Virus record (IMG/VR): IMGVR_UViG_3300034760_000025
Span: 25,727 to 89,726 of that record
DNA: 64,000 nucleotides
Source: a virus
Reading direction: 5' to 3' (one strand)
Position numbers and translations under genes: made by a program. Within the stretch, counting starts at the first letter, position 1. Each line of letters begins with the position of its first letter. Below, piece after piece: positions 9,285 to 61,166 of this stretch. A model generated the notes under the pieces. It was not told where the DNA came from. It worked only from the letters and a program-made list of their open reading frames with translations, and ran no database searches.

Positions 9285-11073
9285 GGACCCCGCAGCCGCG
9301 CGGCGTACCTTGGCGACCTCGCCCCGTACCTCGACGACCCGTCATCGATCAACCCCCGGGACGTCAAGTACGGAGCGGCAGGCACCGGCACGAAAGACGA
9401 CACCGCCGCCCTGGTGAAGGCCCACGCCGCTGCGGTCGCCGCAGGCGGGTTCGTCCAGCTCCCGGCCCGGCACGTACCTGCACACCGGGTTTTCGATCAC
9501 CTCGTCGCTGCGCGGCTCACCGCTGGGCAAGACGGTCCTACGCGGCCCACAGATCACCCTGTCGACGTCGGGTATCGAGCTGTCCGACCTGAAGATCGTG
9601 TCGTCGACGTCAACAGCGGTGATATCCGCGCACTGCGCCGATGTCCGGTGGCAGCGGGTCGAGGTCAGCCACGAAAACGGGGTGACGGACCACCTCGCGT
9701 GGAACGCGTACAACGTCGACCGGCTGCAGGTCATCGGTTGCAAATTCGGCATCGGGGGGTTGCAACTCAGCCTGTGCGACGACTTCGTCATCAACAACAA
9801 CTTTTGGGACGCGCAGTACCTCAACACCAACGAGCCGTGTCACATCAGTACGCAAAGCTCGGGTGTTTTCACGAACAATACGGTGACGAACACAGCGACG
9901 GACGCGGTTGACCTTTACTCGTCAGGTCACCGGTGCGTGGTCGCCAACAACCGCTTTATCGGGCTGCGGGGCGGCGCCGGTCTTGAATGCAAAGTCACCA
10001 TGTCGGACATCCCTGGTAACTCGTCGTCGCCCGGGAATGTGTTCGAGTCGACGGTTATCGCGAACAACGTTTTCCGGGACTTCAACGGCTCGGTGACGTC
10101 GACGCGGACCGGGATCTACGCGTCGTATGTCGACAGCCGGGCGGCGCCGGCGTTCGCGATCGCCGAGGCCAACCGGGGCATCATCATCACCGGGAACATC
10201 TTGGCCGACTTCAACGAGACGGACCCCGGTAACGGGGCCATCGTGTCGTACCAGGCCATCGTGTTCCACGGCAGCAACGGCATCGTCGCGAACAACATCG
10301 TCCGGAACATGCGGGCGTGGAACGCGGCCACCCCCGTCGGCATCGCGCTGTTCTCCGAGAACGCGGATGTCACCGCCGGGGCGAAGTGCATCGGTGTGAC
10401 CGTGCAGGGCAACAACATCGCCGGGCTGGAAGGCGTCACCAGCTACGGCATCCGGGCCGGGAACCTCGACTACTGCAACATCACCGGGAACACGATCCGG
10501 ACCGATGACGTCGCCGGGCGGTCCCCGAAGTACGGCATCGGCATAACCAACGGTGCGTCGCTGAACCACTGCAGGATCTCCGACAACATCATTCAGTGCA
10601 ACCAGACCAACGCCCAGGCCATTGTGGCGACGAGCACCACCACCACGTTTACCGAGTGCGACATATCGGGGAACATGATCCGGGACTGCGGGATCAGCAT
10701 CTACAAGGCGATCCGGTGCAGCTTCACAAATAACACGTTCAACAACGCGACAAACGGTGGGGCTTTCAACCTCGGCATCGCCGGGGTGACGTGCCTCGAC
10801 ATCCGCATCATCGGTAATCACTTCACGATGAACGGGGCGGCCAGCGCTATCGTCCTGACGAACGTCGACGGGTTCATCGCGAACGGGAATACGTTCAAAT
10901 CGGTTACCCGGTCAATCTTCGCATTCAGCGTGACGAAGAACGGGGTCGTAACGGGGAACATCGCCCGCACCCAGTCGGTCGGCTCCACCGTCCTCATCTT
11001 CGACGCCAGTGTCAGCGGCGGCGACCAGGCCACCACGTACATCGACGCCAGCTCAAACAAGATCCTCACCTGA
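9279..11073 (+). pseudogene. Beta-helix spike protein, frameshifted
   Basis: Begins MPGPRSRAAYLGDLAPYLDD, then DVKYGAAGTGTKDDTAALVKA, the usual entry of pectate-lyase-like spikes. At about 9463 the frame breaks: the expected LPPGTYLHTGFSI is in the +1 frame, and removing one G from CCGGCCC would restore it. The remainder (to 11073) has many NNxFxxx-type parallel beta-helix turns (VIANNVFRDFN, ITGNIL, ITGNTIRTDD). As written, only a fragment of about 200 residues would be made. Either an inactivated gene or a base error. Confidence 0.75.
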
Positions 11074-21556: not shown

Positions 21557-22012
21557 GTGGCCCGTTCTGACCTTGAACCGGAGGTGCTGCACGCGGACGG
21601 TATCGCCGTGCTGCTGCGGGCCCGGCTCGACGAGCTGGGGTGCGACTTTCCCGTGTACCGCGATGGGCGGATCCCCGCGACCCCGTCGTACCCGTACTAC
21701 GTCGTGTGGGGGTCCGCGGGGACCCCGTACGCGCCCGCTGACCGGCTCGCCGGGTACGGCGGGGAGGTCACCAGCACCCACCAGATCACCGCGGCCGGTT
21801 TGAGCGTCGACGACGTGATCGGCGCCGTGGGCCGGGCCCGGTTCGCGTTGCACCGCCGGCGGCCGGTCGTGCCGGGGCGTCGGGGTGGGGAGCTGACCCA
21901 CGACGGGACACCGGGCCGGCCCGTGCCGGACCCGCAGCGGGAGGCCGGCGGCCAGCAGGTGCTGGCGCTGCCGATGTTCTTCCGTCTCACCACATCACCG
22001 AAACGAGTATGA
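21557..22012 (+). CDS. Tail terminator-like protein
   Basis: 151 residues from GTG 21557 behind GGGGGG. It starts with an acidic helix (LEPEVLHADGIAVLLRARLD) and continues with a beta-rich section (YPYYVVWGSAGTP, then THQITAAGLSVDDVIGAVGR), the usual organisation of siphovirus tail terminators. Location between gp10-like and major tail genes agrees. It ends in an ATGA overlap with the next frame. Confidence 0.55.
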   Translation: MARSDLEPEVLHADGIAVLLRARLDELGCDFPVYRDGRIPATPSYPYYVVWGSAGTPYAPADRLAGYGGEVTSTHQITAAGLSVDDVIGAVGRARFALHRRRPVVPGRRGGELTHDGTPGRPVPDPQREAGGQQVLALPMFFRLTTSPKRV

Positions 22013-27100: not shown

Positions 27101-28166
27101 CATGGCACCGCGGGAGACACCGGCGGCGCCGGCCAGGGCGACCCGGCTCGACTACGCCGAGTCGTACCTACAGGCCCGTACCGCGGTGCAGGGCCTCAAC
27201 GCGGCCCTCAAGGAGAACGGGCGCTGGTTCGGCACGTCGACGGTCAAGGGGCAGGAGAACACGGGGGCGCTGTACGCGGCGATCCGCGCCGCGCAGGACG
27301 CCGCGAAGACCAAATTTGAGGAGACCGGGTCGGTCAAGCAGGCCAACGCGGCGTACGCGGCGCACATCGCCCGGCTGCGGGCCACCCTGCAGCAGCAGAA
27401 AGTCAACAGTGCCACCGTGCGGCAGTTGCTGGCGTTGGCGACCCGCCCGGTGTACGACCCGCCGGCCACGACGCCGGCGGCGCCGCAGAACAGCCTGGGT
27501 GCGATCGCCTGGGCGAAGTCGGCGATCACGGCGGCGGGCGGGATTGAGGACCTGCGGGACAAGCTGTCCCTCAACCGGCCGGGGATCAGCCTGGGAACCC
27601 CTGAGGGGCGGGAGAACCTGTCGGGGATCATCGGGTTCCTGGAGCAGGCCGCGGCGGCGGCGCAGGACCGGTACGCGCAGAGCGGCAGCGCGAAGACCGC
27701 GACGGCGCTCTACAACGGGTACGTCGCCCAGCTGCGGCAGGCCTTGGCCGCGAACGGGTTCACCCCGGCGGTCGTCGCGGGGATTCTGTCGGCGTACGGG
27801 CGGATCACGTTGCAGCCCAACGCCCGCGGTGGGGTGTACATGGCCGCCCGGGGTGCGATGTCGCTGTCCGATCCGACGCTGTTCCCGTCGGCGGGCCGGA
27901 CCTTGTACGGCTTCGCTGAGCGGGGCACCGGCGGGGAGGCGTTCATCCCCCGCAACGGGGAGCAGAAACGGGGCCGGGAGCTCGTCGACACCACCGCACG
28001 GTGGTACGGGGGGCGTTTCACACCGGCCGGCGGTGGCGGCACCACATCCACGGTCATCAACAACAACCTGAACGTGACGCCGCTGTCGTACAACCCCACC
28101 ACCGCCGAACTGCTCGGTTTCCAGAAAGCGATGGATGCCCAGGCGCGGGTGGGGCGGCGGCGTTGA
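24177..28166 (+). CDS. Tape measure protein
   Basis: 1,329 residues, the longest gene of the tail operon. It is Ala/Gly-rich with an early hydrophobic stretch (about 60-125) and a second near 400. Around 780-850 there are tandem units containing VEALGFKVKRMPDGRF and LESLGYRVKTMPDGTV. The C-terminal third holds two diverged copies of a module ending in GGELFLPRRG/GGEAFIPRNG, RGREL and WYNG/WYGG. Sets tail length and is ejected during DNA delivery; no lytic domain is evident. Confidence 0.8.
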   Translation: MTERNVTVRLGLSVRDYISGGTAADAMNRRMTESMRDLGAEADRTAGKLTGAGNAAERSGKRMGRGALYGAAGVAALAAAGGGLKILPPLLAATATAGAALPGILGGAATGAAVLKIALSGVGDALGDIYSTDDPFSRLTPNARKFLAVADQVKPKLLGLQAGLQQRVMQGTAADLKLFTDVTVPAVTAGLERIADDWADTFAELALAAADPQVTGAFNTVAESADRFFDQFNDRIRPTAKAVASLVESADPVARAVGDSLVGMIDRFTARVAVAKRSGSLDELFAGGAEAARDLASITGNVLRLTGQTIAAVNRQGTGFGDMADRLDQYIASGRSIKDITGIVNTLTTAYEGVASVLGPLGALARDAFADPGTMQSIQSTFQILAAGSQVLAEVARLFLALNGATGGMLLTVVALGLIVSKATAGITLMGVAAGKASTRLATMGPAGAQAGRGLNAVAAGAGRALGALIALQVIDDVLGSLQGDLNPQIEAVGSGLVQWAKDGKLAGEAARVLGSDFEDLKVGFAFLADEDSKRRGAVRALQGGLEAIVPGLDGTSTSLTKTGERIVAMDASLAGLVQGGHTAQAAGAFQDLADVLAVDGVSLDEFKAKFPQYAAAMEVATSATGGASAAVSDHSERTRLLAGSFQEASAAGKDLATTMALLNGTSLTAFQAEVALEQAYDAAREAIGKNGRTVNKATGEIDKSTKAGQENALSLAKIVEVSTAAADAANKRAGNEKAGIPILIAAREEFVKLATKATGSAAAAKRLADEIFNIPNKDVQIAAKTEKALAKVEALGFKVKRMPDGRFVIDAGTEAARAKLESLGYRVKTMPDGTVQVIAETEAAKRRIAEARAQLAALNGKTATTYVVTKANYIGPVGPKSPYAKKAQGGVSIPRQHGGVRAAAQGLLQPEIAPPGTRYQWAEPETGGELFLPRRGINMRRGRELLGVAAGWYNGVFLPMARGGVRRAAAGLVNMAPRETPAAPARATRLDYAESYLQARTAVQGLNAALKENGRWFGTSTVKGQENTGALYAAIRAAQDAAKTKFEETGSVKQANAAYAAHIARLRATLQQQKVNSATVRQLLALATRPVYDPPATTPAAPQNSLGAIAWAKSAITAAGGIEDLRDKLSLNRPGISLGTPEGRENLSGIIGFLEQAAAAAQDRYAQSGSAKTATALYNGYVAQLRQALAANGFTPAVVAGILSAYGRITLQPNARGGVYMAARGAMSLSDPTLFPSAGRTLYGFAERGTGGEAFIPRNGEQKRGRELVDTTARWYGGRFTPAGGGGTTSTVINNNLNVTPLSYNPTTAELLGFQKAMDAQARVGRRR

Positions 28167-40963: not shown

Positions 40964-41595
40964 GCCGTGCCCGCCGGGGCGGGCTCGGCGAGGTATGTCT
41001 GCCCGGGCCGGCGGGCGGCGAGCAACGCGACCAGGTCGGCCGTCAGGTTGTCCCGCATGGGGTAGGCGATCGTGACGGGCCACCGGCCGGCGCCGGACCG
41101 GCGGGCGGTGACGGCGTTGTACCGCAGGGCGAGGCGTGCGGGCCCGACCTCGAGATCAGCGTCGGCGCTGTACGCGGCGGCGAGCGCCCCGGGGTCGACG
41201 ACAACCATCATGATGCGGTGGGGACGCTGTTCGCTGTCGGCCATGACCGCGTGTGCGAGGTCGTGCATCTGCCGAACCCGGCCGGCGGACACACCCATGC
41301 CGGTACGGGCGATGCGAGTAGCCCGGCTCAGGACCGTGATCCACGGCACCACGGTCTGGCGTAGGACGGCGCCGATGTCCTCGCCGGTGGTAGTGGGGTC
41401 GGCGATCAGCGCCGCTACCACGCTTACCGGGCTGATCGCCGGGCCGGTGGTCTGCCGCCACCTACCCGACAGGCCCCTAGCCCACCGGTAGCCGCTGACC
41501 CGGTTGACCACGGTCGCGCCGGCCTTGCCGGGGTGGATCCAGTACGACACCGGGCTGGCTAGGGACCGCGCCGGTGCGATCACGTCCTGCGTCAT
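40960..41595 (-). CDS. Hypothetical protein (211 aa)
   Basis: The start at ATG 41595 is supported by GACGGAGAG upstream. Mixed alpha/beta sequence (VSVVAALIADPTTTGEDIGA; PHRIMMVVVDPGALAAAYSA) without recognisable motif. It precedes the zinc-binding protein in the leftward operon. Confidence 0.5.
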   Translation of the reverse strand: MTQDVIAPARSLASPVSYWIHPGKAGATVVNRVSGYRWARGLSGRWRQTTGPAISPVSVVAALIADPTTTGEDIGAVLRQTVVPWITVLSRATRIARTGMGVSAGRVRQMHDLAHAVMADSEQRPHRIMMVVVDPGALAAAYSADADLEVGPARLALRYNAVTARRSGAGRWPVTIAYPMRDNLTADLVALLAARRPGQTYLAEPAPAGTA

Positions 41596-42404: not shown

Positions 42405-42427
42405 GGGTCGGCTGTCCAGGCCGGCCC
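42405..42427 (-). promoter_or_regulatory. Stem-loop leader element, variant (CTGGACA loop)
   Basis: On the minus strand GGGCCGGC and GCCGACCC form an 8-bp stem with one C-A mismatch around the loop CTGGACA, 21 bases before ATG 42383. It is one base different in the loop from the elements at 51074, 59572 and 61144. Confidence 0.45.
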
Positions 42428-46976: not shown

Positions 46977-47045
46977 TCGCTGCCGGCTAGCGGCTCGGAC
47001 AAGCCGCCGTAATGCGCCAACCGCAGGGGCCGATCAGGACACGGA
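46977..47045 (+). promoter_or_regulatory. Long-range inverted repeat in leader
   Basis: GATCGGCCCCT (46977-46987) and AGGGGCCGATC (47035-47045) are perfect 11-bp arms enclosing 47 bases, between the HTH gene and the annealing-protein gene. The transcript could fold into a leader structure that attenuates or protects. Confidence 0.4.
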
Positions 47046-51073: not shown

Positions 51074-51096
51074 CCGGCGGCCCGGACAGCCGCCGG
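51074..51096 (+). promoter_or_regulatory. Stem-loop leader element (CCGGACA loop)
   Basis: CCGGCGGC and GCCGCCGG form a perfect 8-bp stem around CCGGACA. AGACGGAAGG follows at 51113-51122, ten bases before ATG 51132. Same loop and same ribosome-binding site as the elements at 59572 and 61144 but an entirely different stem. It lies within an operon, with no promoter evident directly upstream. Confidence 0.65.
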
Positions 51097-51131
51097 TAGC
51101 GCCCAGCACCAGAGACGGAAGGACCAACCCC

Positions 51132-51358
51132 ATGGCCACCATGGACCAACCCGATGGCGTGCCGATGCTCGATGTGCCCGCTGTGGTGTACCTGCTGCAG
51201 GCCGTCGCCGCCGGCCGCTACACCCTCGCCGAAGCCGAACGCCGCGCCACCGAGTGGGCCGTCGTCGCCCGCCCGGTCCCGATCCCCGGCCCGCCGTGGC
51301 CGGGGAGCTGCCCGGGCAGCTCCCCGCGCTGTGCCCCGACGGGGAGGTCCTGCCGTGA
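51132..51358 (+). CDS. Small protein before exonuclease, probable frameshift
   Basis: ATG 51132 behind AGACGGAAGG. Begins MATMDQPDGVPMLDVPAVVY, a helical sequence (LLQAVAAGRYTLAEAERRAT). Near 51302-51305 (GGGG) the frame should shift -1: the continuation GELPGQLPALCPDGEVLP ends in a TGA overlapping the exonuclease GTG. Without a shift the frame runs on to 51422 with unlikely arginine-rich sequence. One missing G or frameshifting would explain this. Confidence 0.45.
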
Positions 51359-53205
51359 GCGCTACCGCGCCGACCCTGACCGCCGACGTCGGGTGGCCCG
51401 AGGTGACCGTCCCCGGCGGTGACATCGCCCTGCCCGCCGCTGAAATCCCCGGTGAGAGCACCGACCCGGTGACCCAGGGCGGGACCCCCGTAGCCCACGC
51501 TGGGCCGCCACCGGTCGTGTGTAGCGCCCCGAAGTGCCAGGCTGAGATCAACCTGGCGCCGACGTTGTCCGGTGGGACGATGCCCGTCGACGTCGACCCG
51601 CGCAGCGACGGCAACTGTGTGTGGCGCAAGTCGCCGGGCGGGGTTTGGTACATGCACGTCCTCAAGAAGGGTGAGCCGCCGGCGACCGCGCGCCGGTTCA
51701 TGGCGCACTGGGCGACGTGCGCCGACCCGGACCACTTCCGGGCGAAGAAGACCCCACCTGCCCCGACTCCGGCGCCCGCCCCGGCCGGGCCTCCCCCAGC
51801 ACCGGCGCCGCCCGCGCCGGCCGGCCCGGGGGTGTTGCTGGCCGTCGACGGGAACAGCCTGGCCCACCGGGCGTACCACGCCTACGAGAAGTCCGCGATG
51901 GCCACACCGGACGGCCAACCGGTGTGGGCCGTGTACGGCTTCCTGGCGCTGCTGGCCGGGATCATCGAGCGGACCGAACCGGCCGCCGTCGTGGTCGGAT
52001 TCGACGACCGGGCCAGCTCGACCCGCCGCGACCGGTACGCCGACTACAAAGCGGGCCGGGCGGAACGCAGCGAAGACCTGTACGCCCAGCTCGGCGAGAT
52101 CCCCGACGTCCTCACCGCCCTGGGCGTCACCGTCGTCACACCGGCAGGCCTCGAGGCCGACGACGTCCTCGCGTCCGCCGCCGCGGCCGCCGAGCGGGCC
52201 GGGTGGCGGTGCGTCGTCGCGACCAGCGACAAAGACGCGTTCGGGCTCATCACGGACCGGACCACGGTGATGCGGCTGGTGAACGGTCTCGACAACGCCG
52301 TCAGCATGACCCCGGCCGCCCTGCTGGACAAGTACGGGGTGACCCCGGCCCAATGGCCCGACTACGTCGCGCTGATCGGTGACACATCGGACAACCTGCC
52401 CGGGGTGCCCGGCGTCGGCCCCAAGACCGCCGTGAAGCTACTCGCCGCGTGCGGCACCCTGAGCGCCGCACTCGACGACCCGGCCGCTGTGGCGTCCGCG
52501 GTCGGGAAGGCGGCCGCCGCGAAGCTGGGCGTCGACGCCGCCCGCACCGCGATCGACCGGAACCGCGACATCATGGCACCGGTCCGGGACATCCCGGTCG
52601 ACCCGGCCGGGTGCCGGCCCGCAGCCGTCGCCAGTACCGTCGCCGCGGTCCTACGGGGTCGGCACCTCCCGGCGCTCGTCGACCGGGTCACCGCCGCCCT
52701 GTGCCGCCCGGTCGTCGTGCCGCCGGCCGGGCCGGACCCGCGGCGTGTCCGGGCCGAGATGGTGCGCCGCGGCCGCGAGCAGCTCGTCGCCGACCGGGCC
52801 GTACCCGCACCGGCCGCCGCGGTGGTGACCGTCGACGACGCGCCCCGCCTCGCCCAGGTCGGCGCCGACCAACCCGCCGCGGACCGCACGTGCGGGCGGT
52901 GCGCCACCGTGTGCCCCGCTGTGATGCCCGCCCTCGGTGGCGGCGCCCCGGTGCTCCTCGACGCTGAGTGGGGCCTGTACGACCAGCTCGCCGTGCACGT
53001 CGACGGCCGGTGGCACGTGCGCCCGGTCGCGGACGGGGAGCACGGCACCCCGTACTGGAATCGCCGCCAGACGCACCACTGCCCGGTGCGCCCGCTGGTG
53101 TGCCAGACCCCCGGACACGCCGAGCCGCGACCGGGCCGACTGTTCCCCGGCGGGGTGTTCTGCGCGTCCTGCGAGGGGCCCGCACCCGGGCAACAGGCGA
53201 ACTAG
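51355..53205 (+). CDS. 5'-3' exonuclease with extra zinc-binding ends
   Basis: 616 residues. The centre (about 160-440) is a PolA-type 5' nuclease: LLAVDGNSLAHRAYHA, STRRDRYADYKAGR, LEADDVLAS, ATSDKDAFGLI and GDTSDNLPGVPGVGPKTAVK. It removes RNA primers or flaps. It is longer than usual (about 300 residues): the N-terminal 160 contain a cysteine-bearing unit (VCSAPKCQ) and a Pro/Ala linker. The C-terminal 100 hold CGRCATVC, HHCPVRPLVC and CASC. Confidence 0.8.
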   Translation: MSATAPTLTADVGWPEVTVPGGDIALPAAEIPGESTDPVTQGGTPVAHAGPPPVVCSAPKCQAEINLAPTLSGGTMPVDVDPRSDGNCVWRKSPGGVWYMHVLKKGEPPATARRFMAHWATCADPDHFRAKKTPPAPTPAPAPAGPPPAPAPPAPAGPGVLLAVDGNSLAHRAYHAYEKSAMATPDGQPVWAVYGFLALLAGIIERTEPAAVVVGFDDRASSTRRDRYADYKAGRAERSEDLYAQLGEIPDVLTALGVTVVTPAGLEADDVLASAAAAAERAGWRCVVATSDKDAFGLITDRTTVMRLVNGLDNAVSMTPAALLDKYGVTPAQWPDYVALIGDTSDNLPGVPGVGPKTAVKLLAACGTLSAALDDPAAVASAVGKAAAAKLGVDAARTAIDRNRDIMAPVRDIPVDPAGCRPAAVASTVAAVLRGRHLPALVDRVTAALCRPVVVPPAGPDPRRVRAEMVRRGREQLVADRAVPAPAAAVVTVDDAPRLAQVGADQPAADRTCGRCATVCPAVMPALGGGAPVLLDAEWGLYDQLAVHVDGRWHVRPVADGEHGTPYWNRRQTHHCPVRPLVCQTPGHAEPRPGRLFPGGVFCASCEGPAPGQQAN

Positions 53206-53250
53206 ATCACGTAGCGTCGCACCGGGCGGACCGGGGGAATCGATACGATG

Positions 53251-53276
53251 CGCCGGGGGCTGGCCGGCCCCCGGCG
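53251..53276 (+). promoter_or_regulatory. 10-bp leader hairpin
   Basis: CGCCGGGGGC pairs perfectly with GCCCCCGGCG over TGGCCG, 22 bases before GTG 53299 and after a possible -10 (TACGAT, 53244-53249). Position matches the CCGGACA elements but the loop differs, so I do not include it in that family. Confidence 0.45.
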
Positions 53277-53298
53277 ACCATCGACCAGGGAGACCCAC

Positions 53299-53616
53299 GT
53301 GTCCGATCCCGATGCCCTTGCTGTGCGGTCCGGTGAAACCGAAGTGTCGAAGCGGCGCATCCTGCTAGGTATCGGCCATCGGGCCGGCTGGTGGAACTAC
53401 GAGTCGGAGAACCCGCCCGGGTACGTCGACCGGGCCGGGCGCCGCTACGACACCACCACGTACACCCTGGTTCTGCCCCAGGCTTCGGAGCGGGTGCTCC
53501 TCGCCGACGAGGTGCCCGGGTACGTCCTGGCGACCGCTGACCAGTACGGCGACGAGGCGGTCGCGTCGATCGCGTACCGGGTGACCCTCCTTCCCCGAAC
53601 GAGCGAAACCGAATAA
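53299..53616 (+). CDS. Hypothetical protein (105 aa)
   Basis: GTG 53299 behind AGGGAGA. Basic start (SKRRILLGIGHRAGWWNYES) and a beta-rich C-terminus (DTTTYTLVLPQASERVLLAD). Between exonuclease and clamp-like genes. No family recognised. Confidence 0.5.
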   Translation: MSDPDALAVRSGETEVSKRRILLGIGHRAGWWNYESENPPGYVDRAGRRYDTTTYTLVLPQASERVLLADEVPGYVLATADQYGDEAVASIAYRVTLLPRTSETE

Positions 53617-53802
53617 ATATCAGGGCAAGAAAAGCCCCCCGATACCGGGGGTAGAGAGTAACGTGACGGGTGACGGCACGCCCACTGCAGCGGGCGCCGC
53701 CGTCAAGATCACAAAGGGTATGCGTGCCGGGTGTACCGCCCTTGGGGCTGCGCCCGGCGCTGCCATGTCCTGCGCGCCGTCACGATCGGAGACCCCCCAA
53801 CT

Positions 53803-54093
53803 ATGGCCATGGGCTTGGCCCTCGCGAGCGGACACACACCGCCGTGGATGGAGCCGGAAATCACCTGGTGCTACCTCGAAGACGACGACATGCCCGTCGT
53901 CGCCCCGGCACCGCTGCCCGCTCTGGCGCCGCCGCCGGCGCCGGCCCCCCGGATCGACTGGGCCGGCATTTGCGCGCACGCCACCGCTCTGGGTTTCCCC
54001 ATCGTCGCCGACGAGCTGGCCGCCCGCCGCCGCCGCCGCGCCGACCAGCGCCCCCTCCCCTACCGGCCCCGCCGGTGGACGAAGGGAGCGTGA
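53803..54093 (+). CDS. Hypothetical protein (96 aa)
   Basis: ATG 53803 with GATCGGAGA upstream. Acidic first half (PPWMEPEITWCYLEDDDMP), a Pro/Ala linker, then a helical unit with IDWAGICAHATALGFPIVAD and a basic end. The 186-bp gap before it has a short CCCCCG/CGGGGG hairpin near 53636. Function unknown. Confidence 0.45.
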   Translation: MAMGLALASGHTPPWMEPEITWCYLEDDDMPVVAPAPLPALAPPPAPAPRIDWAGICAHATALGFPIVADELAARRRRRADQRPLPYRPRRWTKGA

Positions 54094-54161
54094 CCCCTGC
54101 CGAAGACCCGGCCGCCGCGGCCGCTGGCACCGCCCACGCCAACCACCTTGATCGGAGAACC

Positions 54162-55466
54162 GTGAACGACCAGTCAACTCCCGCCGACACCACCTACCCG
54201 ACCGACGCCCTCCCCACGGACCACATCGCCCAGGCCGACGCCGAGCCGACCCCCGCCGGCGAAGGCCCGGCCGCCGCCGTAGCGGGCGTGTCCGTCGACG
54301 GCGCCGAGGACGAGCACGACGGTGTGAGGATGGAGGCCGGTGACCTGGCCGACCTCCTGAACGCCCTGGTCGTGTGCACCAGCAGCGACGACGACTTCGA
54401 CACCCTGACCCACGTGCGGCTCGAATCGACCCCCGGCCGGCTGGCCGGCACCGCCACCGATCAGTTCGTCCTCGGACGCGCCTACAAATCGGCACGCGGG
54501 ACGCTCGCCGGCCCGGTGATGCTCCCGGCGGCCGCCGGCCGCCGATTCCTGGCGGACCTCGCCGACGTCGACCGCGCAGAGACGGTCTACCTGAACCAGT
54601 CCGGGACCGGTGCCGGTGCCGGGAACCGGTTGGTTCTGCAGACCACCCGGGGACTCGTCGGGTGCTACCTGCCCGACCCCCCGCCTGCCTACCCGGCCGG
54701 GCTCGCCGAGCTACTCTCCGCCGACGGGTACGACGAAATCGGCCTTACCGGCATGGTCGCGTTCGCCCCCAGGATGCTCGCCGTCGTCCACGCCGCGACC
54801 GAGGCCGCCGGCGAGCACGAGGCCCGCCTCTACTTCCGCTCCCCGACCAAACCGCTCCGGGTCGAAATCAGCGACTGGCTGGTCATCCTCATCATGCCGA
54901 TGGGGTCGACGGATCGCCGTCCGCTGCCCGCCCGGCCGAGCATCCCGTACGCCCTGCCCGACGCCCCCGCCCACCTGGGCGCCACCGCCGACGAACCCAC
55001 CGCGGTCGGCTGGCCCCGCGCCCTCGAGGAGGCCACACCCCGGCGGCTGGCCCGCCACTACGCGGCGCACTACCAGGCCGCGCACCGCAGGGTGTTCGAC
55101 GCGCCGTGGCCGGCGAGCCTGCCGCCGTGGGACCAGCAGGACGAGGTGCAGCGGCGGATCTCCACCGCCCGCGCCGACGCGTACGCCTTCATCGTCAACA
55201 GCTACACCGTGTCGCTGCTGATCCGCCGATTCGCCGCTGCCGCACCGGCCGCTGCCGCGGCGGCGTGCCGCGAACTGTGGGAGGACCTCGACTACGGCGA
55301 CAGCCTCGGCGAGAAGGCGTGGGAATGGCTGCAGGCCGACAAGATCGACCCGAGTGCCGTCACGGTCGACCCGGCCGAACGTGATGCCCAGGCGTTGGCG
55401 ATCCTCATCCGCGCGTACGCCACCCCGCCTCCGGCCGACGACCCGCTCGCCGGGCAGAACACATGA
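54162..55466 (+). CDS. DNA polymerase sliding-clamp (DnaN)-like protein
   Basis: 434 residues. GTG 54162 has GGAGA at proper distance; GTG 54090 does not. After a disordered acidic start, residues 60-250 read as clamp-like: LLNALVVCTSS, THVRLESTPGRLAGTATDQF and a late RVEISDWLVILIMPM, close to the MPM ending of beta clamps. A further helical C-terminal region (from about 300) is not typical of DnaN. It would tether a polymerase to DNA; no phage polymerase is in the window, so it may serve the host enzyme. Confidence 0.55.
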   Translation: MNDQSTPADTTYPTDALPTDHIAQADAEPTPAGEGPAAAVAGVSVDGAEDEHDGVRMEAGDLADLLNALVVCTSSDDDFDTLTHVRLESTPGRLAGTATDQFVLGRAYKSARGTLAGPVMLPAAAGRRFLADLADVDRAETVYLNQSGTGAGAGNRLVLQTTRGLVGCYLPDPPPAYPAGLAELLSADGYDEIGLTGMVAFAPRMLAVVHAATEAAGEHEARLYFRSPTKPLRVEISDWLVILIMPMGSTDRRPLPARPSIPYALPDAPAHLGATADEPTAVGWPRALEEATPRRLARHYAAHYQAAHRRVFDAPWPASLPPWDQQDEVQRRISTARADAYAFIVNSYTVSLLIRRFAAAAPAAAAAACRELWEDLDYGDSLGEKAWEWLQADKIDPSAVTVDPAERDAQALAILIRAYATPPPADDPLAGQNT

Positions 55467-55804
55467 GGACCGCCGCCCGCCGGGCCGCCGGTGTCCTGGG
55501 CGTCCTCGCGATCGTCGCCGCAGCGGCCGCCGACGCCGGCGGCCGTACCCAGACCGCAACGGCCCTGCAGTGCCTCGCCGGGGTCCTGGTCACCCCGGCG
55601 GTCTGGCACTGGATGGGCTACTCCGTCCTACCCGCCCGAACCCGCCCAGCGCCGGCCCGGACGGCGATCCGCGCCGGGACCGTCCCGGCCAGCCTGCGCC
55701 GGCGCCGGCCAGCGAACGAACTGCCCCCACCGCCCCGCACCGGCGCCCTACCGGCCCCGCACCGCCGCCCCGAACTGCCGGCCGCGCCAGCACTTCCCCG
55801 CTGA
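55463..55804 (+). CDS. Small membrane protein (113 aa)
   Basis: ATG overlaps the previous stop (ATGA). Two hydrophobic segments (GVLGVLAIVAAAAADAGG and LQCLAGVLVTPAVWHWMGY) are followed by a basic, proline-rich tail. Last gene of the replication operon, 12 bases before a strong bidirectional terminator. Function unknown. Confidence 0.5.
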   Translation: MRTAARRAAGVLGVLAIVAAAAADAGGRTQTATALQCLAGVLVTPAVWHWMGYSVLPARTRPAPARTAIRAGTVPASLRRRRPANELPPPPRTGALPAPHRRPELPAAPALPR

Positions 55805-55816
55805 CGCGTCCGGTAC

Positions 55817-55856
55817 AAAATGGCCCCCCGCACCGATCGGTGCGGGGGGCCATTTT
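55817..55856. terminator. 20-bp perfect bidirectional terminator
   Basis: A 40-base perfect palindrome starting AAAATGGCCCCCCGCACCGA. A-run on one side and T-run on the other make it a terminator for both the rightward replication operon and the leftward 1,227-residue protein gene that converge here. Confidence 0.85.
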
Positions 55857-55868
55857 CGTCGTTACGGG

Positions 55869-58800
55869 CTACGCCCGGTCGTTGTCCCCCCGGCCGGCCG
55901 GGCTCCGGCCCAGCGCCGCACGACCGCACCGGATCACCAGCACCGCGCCGGCCGCTACATCCCGGATCACCCCGAACCGCGTCCCGTACGGCAACCGCAC
56001 CGTGACCGGCCCGGTGGCCCCGGGCGGCGCGTCCTCCCCCGCGCCGTACCCGGCACGCCACGACACCGCGACCCCGCCCCGGTCCACCTCGACCCGGACC
56101 CCGGTCTCGTCGTGCTGCATCACCAGCCCACCCACCGCACCGACCGCGTCACGGGCGGTGAACGCGTCCAGGGTGAGCAGCGGCCGCAGGCAGACCCGGT
56201 ACGTCTCCATGGCCCGGGCGATCGCGTCCTGGTCCCCGGCCGACACGTCGCGACGCTGCTGCGCCGGCACGTCAGCGTCGGCGACCGGCCCGACGGGCTC
56301 ACCCACCCCGGCGAGGACCTGCGTCAGCACCGGGTCAGCCTGCCGGGCGTCCGCACCGGCGAGGACCGCCGCGTCGGCGTCGTCCTGCCGGGCACCCGCC
56401 GTGACCGTGTCCCGCCCGGGCCACCGCCCGACCGTCGGCAGCGCCAACGCGGCGCGCTCGGCGGCCGCCGCCACCGCCGGGGCCGGCCCGCCCGTCAGAT
56501 CCGCGGCGGTGGGCCCGCCTCCGCCGTCGCCCGGCCGGCAGCCGGGGCGGTGCACGGTGCGGTCGCTGCCGTCGACCCACCCCCCGCTGGGCATCACCTC
56601 CGCGATGACCGGGCAGCCGCACCCGTCGGTACCGACCTCATCGCGTTCCGCGTGCAGCCACTCCCCGCTGTTGGGGTCGCCCGGGGTTTCCGTCGGCATC
56701 CACTCCAGACCCAGCCCGCACGTCAGGCACGACGTCCCCTCGCCGCCCGGGTCGCTGATCGGGCTGGCCCGGTGCGGGTCGGGGACCGACAGGGAGTTGC
56801 TGTCGACCCGGCCGGTCAGGTCAGCCGTGGTGTCCAGCAGCACGCCGACGCTTCCGATGATCGTGAAGCACGTCCGCCCGTCGGCGTGCTGGTAGCGCCA
56901 CCGGACAGCGAACCCGCCGTCGTCGACCACCTCGACCAGGACGAACCCAGCCGCGATCGTCGACTCGTGAATCTCCCGGACCCGGGGCTCGACCTGGTCC
57001 AACGCCGGCCTCGGCGTGACCGGCTCGGCGTGGTACGCGGCCAGCGCGCACCTGACGCACCCGTACCGCTCCCGGCCCAGGTACGCCTGAGGGGTGGCCT
57101 CACCGCAGGTGCCGCAGCGCCGCCACGGCGCGGTGACGTCGCTACGCGGGTGCTTCGGGTCGACCCGGTCCCGGTCACAGCACGGCCGGGGCCGGCTCGA
57201 GGCCGCCACGACCGGGGCGGGCTCCGGCACGGCGACCGGGTCGGCGACGTACGGCACACCATCGTCGATGGTCAGCGGGTCCGGCTCGTCCTGCCCCGGC
57301 CGGCACCACTCGCACGTGGTGAACCCGGCCCGCGCCTCACTGGCCGCCAGGTAGTGCCCGCACACCCCCCGCACCCGCCCCAGGAAGAACAGCCGCAGCT
57401 CGACCGACACCGACAGGTCCTTCGTGTCGACGGGCACCCCGTCCGCGTCGACGACCGGGCGGCCCTCCTCCTGCGCCTGGGCGGCGCCGGCGGCGAGCTG
57501 GTGGAACGCGATGGCCTGCTCCCACCCCCGGCACGTCGCGTCCTTACGCGCCTGGACGACCCGGGCCGGTTCAACCTCGCCGCACCAGGTCGGACCCTCG
57601 CCCCAGCCGCGCTCGAGGTGCACGGTGCGCCTCCCATGGGGGTCGCACGCGACGCATTCGCAGGACGGCGCCCGGCCGTTCTGCTGCCTCCAGTTGGCGA
57701 GCACCTCCGGGTGGTTACGCCGGTACGCGGCCCATCCGGCTGCGCCGTCGCTCGCCACCTCACCGGCGTCGCCCTGGTCGTCGAGCACAGCCCCGGCGCC
57801 CAGTGCCGTGGGCGTCGGGAGGGCGCACCCGGGGGCGGTGCAGGTGATTGGCGCCTCGACGGGCAGCCAGTTGACGACGCGCGCCTCGGCGGGGTTGCGG
57901 TACCCGCACCCGGCCTCCCCCACGGTGGTGTCGTAGGCGTGCACCACGTCGGTGCGGCGCCCGATGGTGGCCGGGGCCAGCTCGGACGGGTCGATCAGGC
58001 GCACCCGGTTGGCGCTGCGAGCGGTCGTCGCGTGGTTAGGGCGCCGCGGCCAGGAGAGCACCACGCGGCCCGGGCCGTCAGTCTCCGCGCTCGCCTCGGT
58101 CACACGGCCACGCCAACCGGTCAGGACACCGGTGAGCGCCCCGACGCACTCGACCAGGGCGCCGACCCGGATCGGCTTGCCGTTGACGTCCAGAGGCGCC
58201 GGGGGGACCGTAACCGGAGCGGCCTGCTCGGCGCCCCTCAGTGCGCGGATCTCTGCCGCAAGGGCGGGCTCGATCGTCACGGTCGCCCCGGTCTTCCGCC
58301 CGTGATCCGCCATGCGTTCCGACAGCCAGCGGATGTCACTGTCGTTGTAGCTCAGCCGGTCGATGAACCGATCCCACCCGGTCGCCAGGTTGTTAGTCCA
58401 CCCGCGCGGCGGGTAGATCCTGCCGCCCCGGCACTCGACGCCCACGGCGGTTGCCAGGTCGCGCAGAGCGGCCCGGGCGCCGGCGTGCCGGTGGTAGCGG
58501 GCCAGCCACGCAACCGCCTTGACGCGCTGCTTCGAGTCGATGGCCACCACATGGGCGGACTCTCCCGCCGGCTCGTCGTCAGCCGGCGGGGTGGCCTGCT
58601 CGGCCCACACCGCGGCGGCCGCGGCGGCGACGTCGGCGCCGCTCTCCTTGCGGATCTTCTTGACGGCCTTCGCGGTGATCCGGGCCAGCTCGTCGGCGGT
58701 GGTGGTGCCGTTCTTGTGCGCCAGGGCGGCGGCGATCTTCCGGGTGTGCGTCTCGTGGCGCAGCGCGTTGGCCTCCTTCGCCTCGCCGATGTGGCGGGAG

Positions 58801-59552
58801 TGGGCGGCCCACACCAGGGCGTCAACCGCCTTGATCTCGGCCGAGCGGACGGTGCGCAGCGTGTCGCCGTCAACCTTGAGCGGCGTTCCGTCGACGTCGG
58901 CAATCAGCTTCGGGTCGGACACCATCGCGGCGGCCTTCGCGGTCTCGCGCTCGGCGGCGATCTCGTCGCGGGTCTTGCGGACCGGGCCGGCGGTCCACTC
59001 GACCGGGGCCGACGGGAAACACACCGTGCAGAGCGCCGGGCCGAGCTTGGCCACCGCGTCGGCCTCGGTCGTGCCGGACAGGTCGGCGTTCCACCCGAAG
59101 CGGGTCGCGTACCGGCCCCGGTTGCACGTCGAGCAGGTCATCGACGAGTGCACGTGACCGTCGGAGACGGTGAAGAAGCGCGACCAGCGGCCGCGGCGCA
59201 CGTACTCGGCTTCGAGCGGCTGCTGCGCGGCCTCGACGTCGGCCAAGGCCTTGACTGCGGCGTCGTACTTGCCCACCAGGTCGGCGTAGGTGCGGCTCGC
59301 GGCCGCGCCGACCACCGGGGCATCCCCGCGGCTACGGGCGGCCTCGACGGTCTCGGCCGGGTTGACCGTCCACACCTGACGGCGGCCCTGCCATACCTGC
59401 TGCTGCCCGAGCGCGCGGCGGATGGCCACAACGGCGATCTCGATTCCCTGCTCGGCCTTCTGCCCCTCGAAGTACAGCGCGGCGAGCTTGGTGTCGATCT
59501 CGACCGGCGTCGCCGTGGCCAGCGGGTTATCTGCGGGGCGCTTCGTGGTCAT
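55869..59552 (-). CDS. Giant multi-zinc-ribbon protein (1,227 aa)
   Basis: Start ATG 59552 behind GACGGAAGG. About six cysteine-pair sites: CSTC/CTVC (139-177), CTAPGC/CECVAC (569-633), CGEV-CGHY-CEWC (659-750), PCCD (790), CGTC/CVRC (814-835), CLTC/CGCP (942-980). Between them are helical and small beta domains; residues 200-420 are a charged helical region. No catalytic motif is recognised. Composition suggests a fusion of many small zinc-binding units. It shares promoter and leader with the DpdA-like gene upstream. Function unknown. Confidence 0.65.
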   Translation of the reverse strand: MTTKRPADNPLATATPVEIDTKLAALYFEGQKAEQGIEIAVVAIRRALGQQQVWQGRRQVWTVNPAETVEAARSRGDAPVVGAAASRTYADLVGKYDAAVKALADVEAAQQPLEAEYVRRGRWSRFFTVSDGHVHSSMTCSTCNRGRYATRFGWNADLSGTTEADAVAKLGPALCTVCFPSAPVEWTAGPVRKTRDEIAAERETAKAAAMVSDPKLIADVDGTPLKVDGDTLRTVRSAEIKAVDALVWAAHSRHIGEAKEANALRHETHTRKIAAALAHKNGTTTADELARITAKAVKKIRKESGADVAAAAAAVWAEQATPPADDEPAGESAHVVAIDSKQRVKAVAWLARYHRHAGARAALRDLATAVGVECRGGRIYPPRGWTNNLATGWDRFIDRLSYNDSDIRWLSERMADHGRKTGATVTIEPALAAEIRALRGAEQAAPVTVPPAPLDVNGKPIRVGALVECVGALTGVLTGWRGRVTEASAETDGPGRVVLSWPRRPNHATTARSANRVRLIDPSELAPATIGRRTDVVHAYDTTVGEAGCGYRNPAEARVVNWLPVEAPITCTAPGCALPTPTALGAGAVLDDQGDAGEVASDGAAGWAAYRRNHPEVLANWRQQNGRAPSCECVACDPHGRRTVHLERGWGEGPTWCGEVEPARVVQARKDATCRGWEQAIAFHQLAAGAAQAQEEGRPVVDADGVPVDTKDLSVSVELRLFFLGRVRGVCGHYLAASEARAGFTTCEWCRPGQDEPDPLTIDDGVPYVADPVAVPEPAPVVAASSRPRPCCDRDRVDPKHPRSDVTAPWRRCGTCGEATPQAYLGRERYGCVRCALAAYHAEPVTPRPALDQVEPRVREIHESTIAAGFVLVEVVDDGGFAVRWRYQHADGRTCFTIIGSVGVLLDTTADLTGRVDSNSLSVPDPHRASPISDPGGEGTSCLTCGLGLEWMPTETPGDPNSGEWLHAERDEVGTDGCGCPVIAEVMPSGGWVDGSDRTVHRPGCRPGDGGGGPTAADLTGGPAPAVAAAAERAALALPTVGRWPGRDTVTAGARQDDADAAVLAGADARQADPVLTQVLAGVGEPVGPVADADVPAQQRRDVSAGDQDAIARAMETYRVCLRPLLTLDAFTARDAVGAVGGLVMQHDETGVRVEVDRGGVAVSWRAGYGAGEDAPPGATGPVTVRLPYGTRFGVIRDVAAGAVLVIRCGRAALGRSPAGRGDNDRA

Positions 59553-59571
59553 CGGGTGGTCCTTCCGTCTG

Positions 59572-59589
59572 GCGGGCTGTCCGGCCCGC
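59572..59589 (-). promoter_or_regulatory. Stem-loop leader element (CCGGACA)
   Basis: On the minus strand GCGGGC and GCCCGC pair (6 bp) around CGGACA, giving the same CCGGACA string as at 61144 and 51074. AGACGGAAGGACCACCCG then leads to ATG 59552; 19 bases separate hairpin and start. Confidence 0.65.
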
Positions 59590-59599
59590 TCAAGACAAG

Positions 59600-59629
59600 A
59601 CACTACCCGCCTGCCAACTAACGTGGCAA
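59600..59629 (-). promoter_or_regulatory. Promoter of giant zinc-protein gene
   Basis: TTGCCA, 18-base spacer, TAGTGT on the minus strand. RNA would start about at the stem-loop, so the hairpin is the 5' end of the message. Same layout as 61171-61200. Confidence 0.55.
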
Positions 59630-59658
59630 CCGAAACGCCGACTATTAGATCGGTTTTT

Positions 59659-61122
59659 TCATGGGGTGAGTGTGAGCTGCTCCCCGCGCCCCGCACAGCG
59701 CCGACGACCAGGGCCCCGGGCCGCCAGCCGCCGCGGCGGGAGCTCTACCGGCGTCGGCCACGCCACCGGCAGCACCGCCGGCGCACCGTCGACGATGTCG
59801 ACCAGGTCGACGTCCGGCGCCGCCGGGACGACCCGGACGACCCGGGCCGCCAGCAGGTCCCGGGCGCCGATCTTCGCGAGGACCTCCAGGCGCCACGCCT
59901 GGGCGTAGCGCGGGCAGTTGCGGCAGTCCGTCAGGTGCTCGACACAGCCCGTCCCGTGGCTCTTCGCGCATTCGCGGGTGCGGTGGTCGCAGCCCGGCAT
60001 CAGGTACTGCTCCTTACGGGCCGTGTCCGACCAGGCGTACGAGTCGGCCGACCACAGCAGGTGGCCGATGATCGGCAACGCTTCGGTCTTCACGCCGAAG
60101 CCGTGCAGCCGGTATCCCTTGTCGGCGAACAGGCGGATGACCTCGACGATCTCCGGCACGCTCGCGCGGCGGCAGATCGACCCGACACCGACCCGGGCCA
60201 GCTCGGCGAGGTCGACGCCCGCTTCGAGGTAGAGCCGCTCGCAATAGAGGTAGTCCTCGGCAGTCTCGCCCTGGATGACGGGCAGCCACGGGACCATCGG
60301 GAAGTTCTCCACCAGGTACAGGTAGTTGCGGACCGTGTGTTTGATGTGCTCGCGGGTGGTGGCGCCGGTGACGTCGCGGCAGACCTGCTCGCACGGGGCG
60401 TCCTGCGGGGCGACGAAGTCAGGCATCCCCACGTCCATGATCAGTCGGACCCACAGCGCGCCGTAGCTGTCCGGGTGCATGTGCCACGGGTGCACCTCGC
60501 CGCGGTTGGTGCCGGACCCGGTCAGCGCCATGAACGCACCGGAGTCCCCGAACCAGTTGCCGTACCGCCGGCTGGTGAACCGGTCCGACTCGGTGTCGCG
60601 GTACCGGGCCAGCGTCGGCGCGGCGATCATCAGCGGGACGTCGCTCGGCAGGTCGGCCAGCCAGTTCGGCCGCCCACCCAGGTAGTACGTGAAGCTGCGC
60701 GAGGCCCGAACAGGCTCCGGAACCGCAGTGGTGTTCCACCGGGCCCGGCCCGCCGGGCCGTAGCCGCCGAAGAGCCAGAGCTGCCCGTCGGCCGGTAGGT
60801 CGGCGACGTGATCCCAGCACTCGACGTCGACCATCGGGGACCACCCCGACGCCGCGTACCACGCATTCACCCGCTTGCGAAGGACCCGAGCGGCCCGAGC
60901 CGCTACGCCGGCATCGTCGCCGGCCGCGATCCGCGCCGAGAACACCAGGTGATCGACCGGGTCACCACGGAACCCGCAGCAGGGGCACGCGTGCAGCCCG
61001 GTGCGTCGGTTCAGCCAGGTCGGGCACTTGCACGCCCCCGGGGCGGCGATCAACGCGCGCAGCTCGGTGCGTGCGTTGGCCGACTCGTCGGCTTCCGCCC
61101 GGTTCTGTGACTGCAGCTTCAT
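59659..61122 (-). CDS. DpdA/TGT-like 7-deazaguanine DNA transglycosylase
   Basis: 487 residues. A zinc-finger-like N-terminus (CKCPTW...CPCCG, about 29-50) precedes a TGT-fold domain: WFGDSGAFMALTG (general-base Asp near 193), PDFVAPQD, PWLPVIQGETAEDYL, LHGFGVKTEALP and WSADSYAWS (probable nucleophile Asp near 355). The TGT zinc site follows (CDHRTREC...CVEHLTDCRNC). The family (DUF7221/DpdA-like) exchanges guanine for a 7-deazaguanine such as preQ0 in DNA. No preQ0 synthesis genes lie in the window, so the base may come from the host. Confidence 0.7.
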   Translation of the reverse strand: MKLQSQNRAEADESANARTELRALIAAPGACKCPTWLNRRTGLHACPCCGFRGDPVDHLVFSARIAAGDDAGVAARAARVLRKRVNAWYAASGWSPMVDVECWDHVADLPADGQLWLFGGYGPAGRARWNTTAVPEPVRASRSFTYYLGGRPNWLADLPSDVPLMIAAPTLARYRDTESDRFTSRRYGNWFGDSGAFMALTGSGTNRGEVHPWHMHPDSYGALWVRLIMDVGMPDFVAPQDAPCEQVCRDVTGATTREHIKHTVRNYLYLVENFPMVPWLPVIQGETAEDYLYCERLYLEAGVDLAELARVGVGSICRRASVPEIVEVIRLFADKGYRLHGFGVKTEALPIIGHLLWSADSYAWSDTARKEQYLMPGCDHRTRECAKSHGTGCVEHLTDCRNCPRYAQAWRLEVLAKIGARDLLAARVVRVVPAAPDVDLVDIVDGAPAVLPVAWPTPVELPPRRLAARGPGRRRCAGRGEQLTLTP

Positions 61123-61143
61123 CGCGTGGTGCCTTCCGTCTCG

Positions 61144-61166
61144 GTGCTGGGTGTCCGGCCCAACAC
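61144..61166 (-). promoter_or_regulatory. Stem-loop leader element (CCGGACA loop)
   Basis: On the minus strand GTGTTGGG and CCCAGCAC form an 8-bp stem with one U-G pair around CCGGACA. GAGACGGAAGGCACCACGCG follows up to ATG 61122. Stem bases differ from those at 59572 and 51074 while pairing is kept. Confidence 0.65.

Follow-up and report, generated by a model that had tools for sequence, protein, structure and literature searches.

A hairpin with a conserved GGAC loop and covarying stems in the leaders of non-structural genes of three related phages

Repeated sequences at translation starts are known from cluster K mycobacteriophages, in which a 13-bp start-associated sequence (SAS), located at the ribosome-binding site, occurs with or without an extended start-associated sequence (ESAS) formed by 17-bp inverted repeats (PMC3203893). 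According to Pope et al., the departures seen in the two ESAS arms are in general not of a kind that would support RNA pairing (PMC3203893); later work placed a SigA-like promoter and a presumed operator within the ESAS (PMC11373665). Cluster EF Microbacterium phages have been grouped with SAS/ESAS-type systems (PMC7302621), and in 2025 the role of these sequences was still said to need experimental verification (PMC12699233). Here, a leader hairpin followed by a start-associated motif is described in a window of 64,000 nt from an uncultured phage of actinobacterial type, bases 25727–89726 of the 89,726-bp IMG/VR virus record IMGVR_UViG_3300034760_000025, and in two distantly related phages.

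Five leaders of the window (L1–L5, Table 1) carry a hairpin that presents a GGACA-containing loop of 6 nt in L2 and L4 and of 7 nt in L1, L3 and L5, and hairpin copies always have the same orientation as the gene downstream. The first-pass annotation had recognised L1–L3 as CCGGACA hairpins followed by a motif and a start codon, which direct reading of the sequences confirms with a shorter L2 loop (CGGACA), but it missed L4 and L5, which were found by a hairpin scan and by reading all intergenic leaders of the window. Downstream of L1, L2 and L3 comes AGACGGAAGG and then an ATG, at 51132, 59552 and 61122, respectively. The general form of the motif across leaders is GAGACGG.AGG, Shine–Dalgarno-like sequence included, and the only second conserved block observed lies downstream of the hairpin. 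CCGGACA by itself is not enriched (27 copies vs. 21.5 expected); together with AGACGGAAGG within 25 nt it occurs three times vs. 0.00 expected, with no other occurrence in the 89.7-kb record. Minimum free energy (MFE) folding places GGACA in the loop for L1–L5 and leaves the ribosome-binding site mostly open. A sixth candidate (TGCCC-TGGACGT-GGGTA, before the gene at 41595, minus strand) was not counted, since its MFE fold contains no such hairpin.

The claim that the loop is conserved on stems that differ and yet remain paired is borne out by covariation. In an ungapped alignment of 12 copies, with the loop setting the register, each of the eight stem pairs has changed on both sides, 85.4% of the cells are paired, and the covariation score is 0.786; shuffles give 0.186 ± 0.056 and slid partners 0.224 at most. 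The loop bases GGAC are the same in every aligned copy. Since the presence of a hairpin had helped to pick out some of these copies, the test without that bias is one that selects sites only by the downstream motif. When sites were picked over the whole record solely by AGACGGAAG near a start codon, a GGACA hairpin was found at four of four (shuffle p = 0.0015, 0.0015, 0.016 and 0.044; Fisher combined ~3e-6 by our own arithmetic). In the covariance model of the hairpin, seed copies score 20–30 bits, including 29.3 bits for L3, whose stem reaches 10 bp counting outer pairs, and 29.9 bits for L5, both being seeds themselves, and the best match in control records reaches 20.7 bits. Rfam covariance models gave no match at the leaders.

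A lack of further copies in related phages had been named in the first-pass annotation as part of what would refute it; copies were found in two of them. Relatives were located via the terminase (P0003), and repeated 9-mers in their leaders were then counted without bias. In IMGVR_UViG_3300018469_000001 (100,981 bp; hereafter G007), CACCGAGACG and GGTCGTGTAACGT recur in the leaders, about 11 hairpin copies are present, and the start-associated motif takes the form CCGAGACG, vs. AGACGGAAGG in the phage of the window. At the 12 G007 sites picked solely by CCGAGAC near a start codon, GGAC hairpins stand far above shuffles (Fisher ~1e-13, also our arithmetic). The second relative, IMGVR_UViG_3300036852_000742 (81,120 bp; hereafter G050), has one clear copy (27889, minus strand) and several leaders with the related loop GCTGGA. 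A promoter-like TATTGCCCCGC...GGGTANNNT also recurs ahead of G050 genes, often followed by GGGG(A/T)GCTGGA..CCCC hairpins and GAGACGGA. All three carrier phages have a virion gene module in common.

Elsewhere, the covariance model returned no convincing copy from about 90 other related phage records, many of which are fragments, and those weak matches that were checked were chance matches in coding sequence. Scanning IMG/VR with the exact pattern gave 36 matches, none with a hairpin, and a second pattern (79 stretches) gave leaders only from G007 and G050; a match in a further record (G051) was rejected as chance, as this record has 44% GC. Scanning IMG/VR for DpdA and for the exonuclease yielded no relatives, and BLASTN of the leaders against named phages found nothing credible.

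The element matches the SAS/ESAS pair in placement and differs from it in sequence and structure. As with SAS/ESAS, a repeated, oriented and asymmetric motif overlaps the ribosome-binding site just ahead of the start codon in some, not all, non-structural genes, and an inverted-repeat element lies upstream of part of the motifs with a promoter-like sequence nearby. However, GAGACGG.AGG does not correspond to the 13-bp GGGATAGGAGCCC, even with up to 2 mismatches allowed, and, whereas the ESAS has a conserved 17-bp repeat sequence with, reportedly, no RNA-pairing pattern, here the stem varies with compensating changes around a conserved loop. In a parallel covariation count on the ESAS of Pixie, pairing itself set the arm register, and each half site is self-palindromic. 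The promoter, moreover, lies inside the ESAS in cluster K and upstream of the hairpin, where present, in these phages. Cluster K homologues of the 55869–59552 protein, matching in its N-terminal region, have leaders with SAS and ESAS, so that members of one gene family are preceded by leaders that are analogous yet unrelated. Another homologue of this protein is encoded in IMGVR_UViG_3300007790_000083 (63.8 kb), where CCCGCCAAGGAG, a different start-associated sequence, stands ahead of up to 14 genes. In IMGVR_UViG_2758568729_000001 (150 kb), ACTTGATAGATGTAA / TTGGTAGATGTAA is repeated about 10 times in leaders, possibly as an operator or promoter repeat.

A −10-like TANNNT hexamer ends 4–16 nt before the hairpin in 13 of 21 leaders, with a chance expectation of 5.6% per leader, and TTG is often found 17–18 nt further upstream; the other eight leaders have no −10-like hexamer. 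Transcription usually initiates 6–8 nt after the −10 sequence and, therefore, transcripts of the hexamer-bearing leaders would begin with the hairpin. The same loop is found in promoter-less intergenic copies, namely L1, L4 and the G007 copies at 10245 and 10536. Since copies exist both with and without a promoter-like sequence, the element is linked more tightly to start codons than to promoters.

Table 1. Positions of the leader hairpins, associated sequences and downstream genes (window coordinates, except for G007 copies, which are numbered in their own record).
Feature	Position	Strand	Description
L1 hairpin	51074..51096	+	stem CCGGCGGC/GCCGCCGG, loop CCGGACA; shuffle p = 0.0015
L2 hairpin	59572..59589	-	stem GCGGGC/GCCCGC, loop CGGACA; shuffle p = 0.016
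L3 hairpin	61144..61166	-	stem GTGTTGGG/CCCAGCAC, loop CCGGACA; shuffle p = 0.0015
L4 hairpin	46990..47007	+	stem GCGGCT/AGCCGC, loop CGGACA; shuffle p = 0.044
L5 hairpin	42405..42427	-	stem GGGCCGGC/GCCGACCC with one mismatch, loop CTGGACA
Second hairpin of L4	47038..47063	+	stem GACACGGA/TCCGTGTC, 10-nt loop CCGGAAAGGT, directly before GAGACGGAAGA
Motif of L1	51113..51122	+	AGACGGAAGG, contains Shine–Dalgarno-like GGAAGG
Motif of L2	59561..59570	-	AGACGGAAGG
Motif of L3	61132..61141	-	AGACGGAAGG
Motif of L4	47064..47074	+	GAGACGGAAGA
Promoter-like sequence of L2	59600..59629	-	TTGCCA-N18-TAGTGT, ends 10 nt before hairpin
Promoter-like sequence of L3	61171..61200	-	TTGCCG-N18-TAGGGT, ends 4 nt before hairpin core
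−10-like sequence of L5	42436..42441	-	TAAGTT, ends 8 nt before hairpin
Gene after L1	51132..51422	+	96-aa ORF, overlaps start of exonuclease gene
Exonuclease gene downstream of L1	51355..53205	+	5′-3′ exonuclease, PF02739/PF01367
Gene after L2	55869..59552	-	1227-aa protein; N-terminal region matches PHROG 2433/15500
Gene after L3	59659..61122	-	DpdA-like, PF23859, E = 8e-42
Gene after L4	47114..48043	+	single-strand annealing protein, PHROG 3290, E = 1.5e-47
Gene after L5	41697..42383	-	228 aa, without family match
G007 copy	82400	-	GTTGGGG-CCGGACA-CCCCGAC
G007 copy	10245	+	13-bp stem around GTGGACA; promoter-less
G007 copy	10536	+	11-bp stem around CGGGACA; promoter-less
G007 copy	21896	+	12-bp stem, one mismatch, around CCTGGACA

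The genes initially listed behind L3, L2 and L1 encode the DpdA-like protein, the 1227-aa protein and the 96-aa ORF before the exonuclease, respectively. Counting this phage and G007, downstream genes with a match encode DpdA, the exonuclease (behind the 96-aa ORF), a single-strand annealing protein (SSAP), RecT, a DNA methyltransferase and a DUF6884 protein, with SSAP/RecT and DNA-metabolism genes among them in both phages, and the remainder encode uncharacterised small or large proteins. Many copies precede single small genes, and none was found ahead of any recognisable virion gene. A replication-initiation-like gene stands directly upstream of L1 and, likewise, of the G007 copy at 21896. 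The DpdA-like protein suggests 7-deazaguanine DNA modification, and 390 of its 398 named-phage match records are mycobacteriophages. In the virion region, another leader hairpin, GCGGCGCCCGGCGCCGG(A/G)AAGG, is common to three genes (11139, 15713 and 18430, plus strand), right at the ribosome-binding site, and two of these genes encode similar tail-fibre-like proteins.

We put the probability at roughly 55% that the element acts in cis as a dispersed leader module of the mRNA, with a loop to which a putative trans-acting regulator binds, and that it co-sets the expression of a set of non-structural genes. In such a module, a hairpin with a (C)YGGACA-type loop would be followed by a variable gap, the GAGACGG.AGG motif and the start codon of a non-structural phage gene, and it would form the transcript 5′ end in about 60% of the leaders and lie between genes of an operon in the others. 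The stem would present the loop, whose GGAC would be read by a putative trans-acting RNA-binding factor of phage or host origin, and the bound factor would set ribosome access or mRNA lifetime, with joint control of replication, recombination, DNA-modification and small accessory genes by this one factor. What the computations show is the module itself, its presence in three phages, the covariation of its stem, its orientation and its position; that it acts on RNA, that a factor binds it and in which direction it changes expression are inferred. A role in gene expression at the RNA level is likely, because the combination of constant loop and compensating stem is strongly supported and is present in two further phages, and translation control is favoured, because the hairpin is coupled to the start-associated GAGACG/Shine–Dalgarno block, with mRNA stabilisation as its main rival. 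Hairpins or motifs at the ribosome-binding region can be bound by phage proteins, as at the T4 gp43 and RegA sites and the MS2 coat operator; the present leaders resemble these translational operators in layout, but the T4 and MS2 hairpin operators serve one or few genes, whereas the same loop stands here ahead of five genes in this phage and of up to about 11 in G007.

Several observations weigh against the leader-module proposal. The element had been described as a protein-binding RNA operator or translational switch at a fixed position before the ribosome-binding site. The binding protein and the switch are putative; the hairpin-to-Shine–Dalgarno spacing varies widely, with the loop ~28–47 nt from the start codon in L1–L3 and ~115 nt in L4, so that the position is not fixed, and a search for a binding partner found neither a protein family confined to the three carrier phages nor a CsrA encoded in their records. 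Among the copies in G007 and G050, some are weak (25192 and 78799, plus and minus strand, respectively, and 39086, minus strand) or absent from the MFE fold. Moreover, four promoter-bearing G007 leaders (27462, 28338 and 60941, minus strand; 35632, plus strand) have no GGAC loop, thus loop recognition cannot be universal; the three at 27462, 28338 and 35632 keep a different hairpin, of up to 11 bp, so that structure is more general than loop.

This last feature fits a plain stabilising hairpin, the rival that survives best, although we consider it rather unlikely. Here the hairpin would be a ligand-free 5′-terminal stabiliser with a translation-friendly leader, protecting mRNA from 5′-end-dependent decay and keeping the ribosome-binding site open, in line with the −10-like hexamers shortly before it in most leaders and with the mostly open ribosome-binding sites of the MFE folds. 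Loop conservation would then reflect shared ancestry of the leader cassettes or a need for loop stability; however, GGAC is invariant although every stem position changes, and the four promoter-less intergenic copies share the same loop. A nut/put-like RNA signal making RNA polymerase antiterminating, one per transcription unit, seems improbable: hairpins with a conserved loop near promoters and between genes do resemble lambda boxB in placement, but boxA precedes the boxB hairpin in lambda, the second conserved block here stands downstream of the hairpin, where it runs into the Shine–Dalgarno region, and many copies serve only single small genes. Slightly less probable still is a DNA operator or transcription-initiation signal like the cluster K ESAS, with the RNA hairpin incidental. 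Many copies are abutted by promoter-like sequences, and the ESAS of Adephagia have been described as promoters with inverted repeats (PMC11373665), but the stems stay paired whatever their sequence, hence there is no fixed dyad, promoter-less copies exist, and orientation always follows the gene. Repression of translation by a host CsrA/Rsm-type protein is very improbable, since, despite a CsrA/RsmA-like layout of GGA in the loop and a second GGA at the Shine–Dalgarno region, the loops have CC, CT, GT, CG or TT before GGA instead of the ANGGA consensus, an additional GAGACG block is conserved, and none of the three phage records encodes the protein.

Start-associated repeats in actinobacteriophages have been on record since 2011 without an assigned function and were argued not to work via RNA structure. 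For at least one start-associated system, there is now clear sequence evidence of working through RNA, with a conserved loop, a covarying stem and, in many leaders, a hairpin at the predicted 5′ terminus of the transcript. We tentatively suggest a phage RNA regulon of a kind not described before, in which up to a dozen genes would carry, at the 5′ end or at the start site, a GGAC heptaloop or hexaloop on a stem of free sequence, and one putative regulator would read all of these loops. If this is true, it would represent a genome-wide post-transcriptional switch in double-stranded DNA actinobacteriophages, and the element could also yield a portable RNA part for high-GC bacteria.

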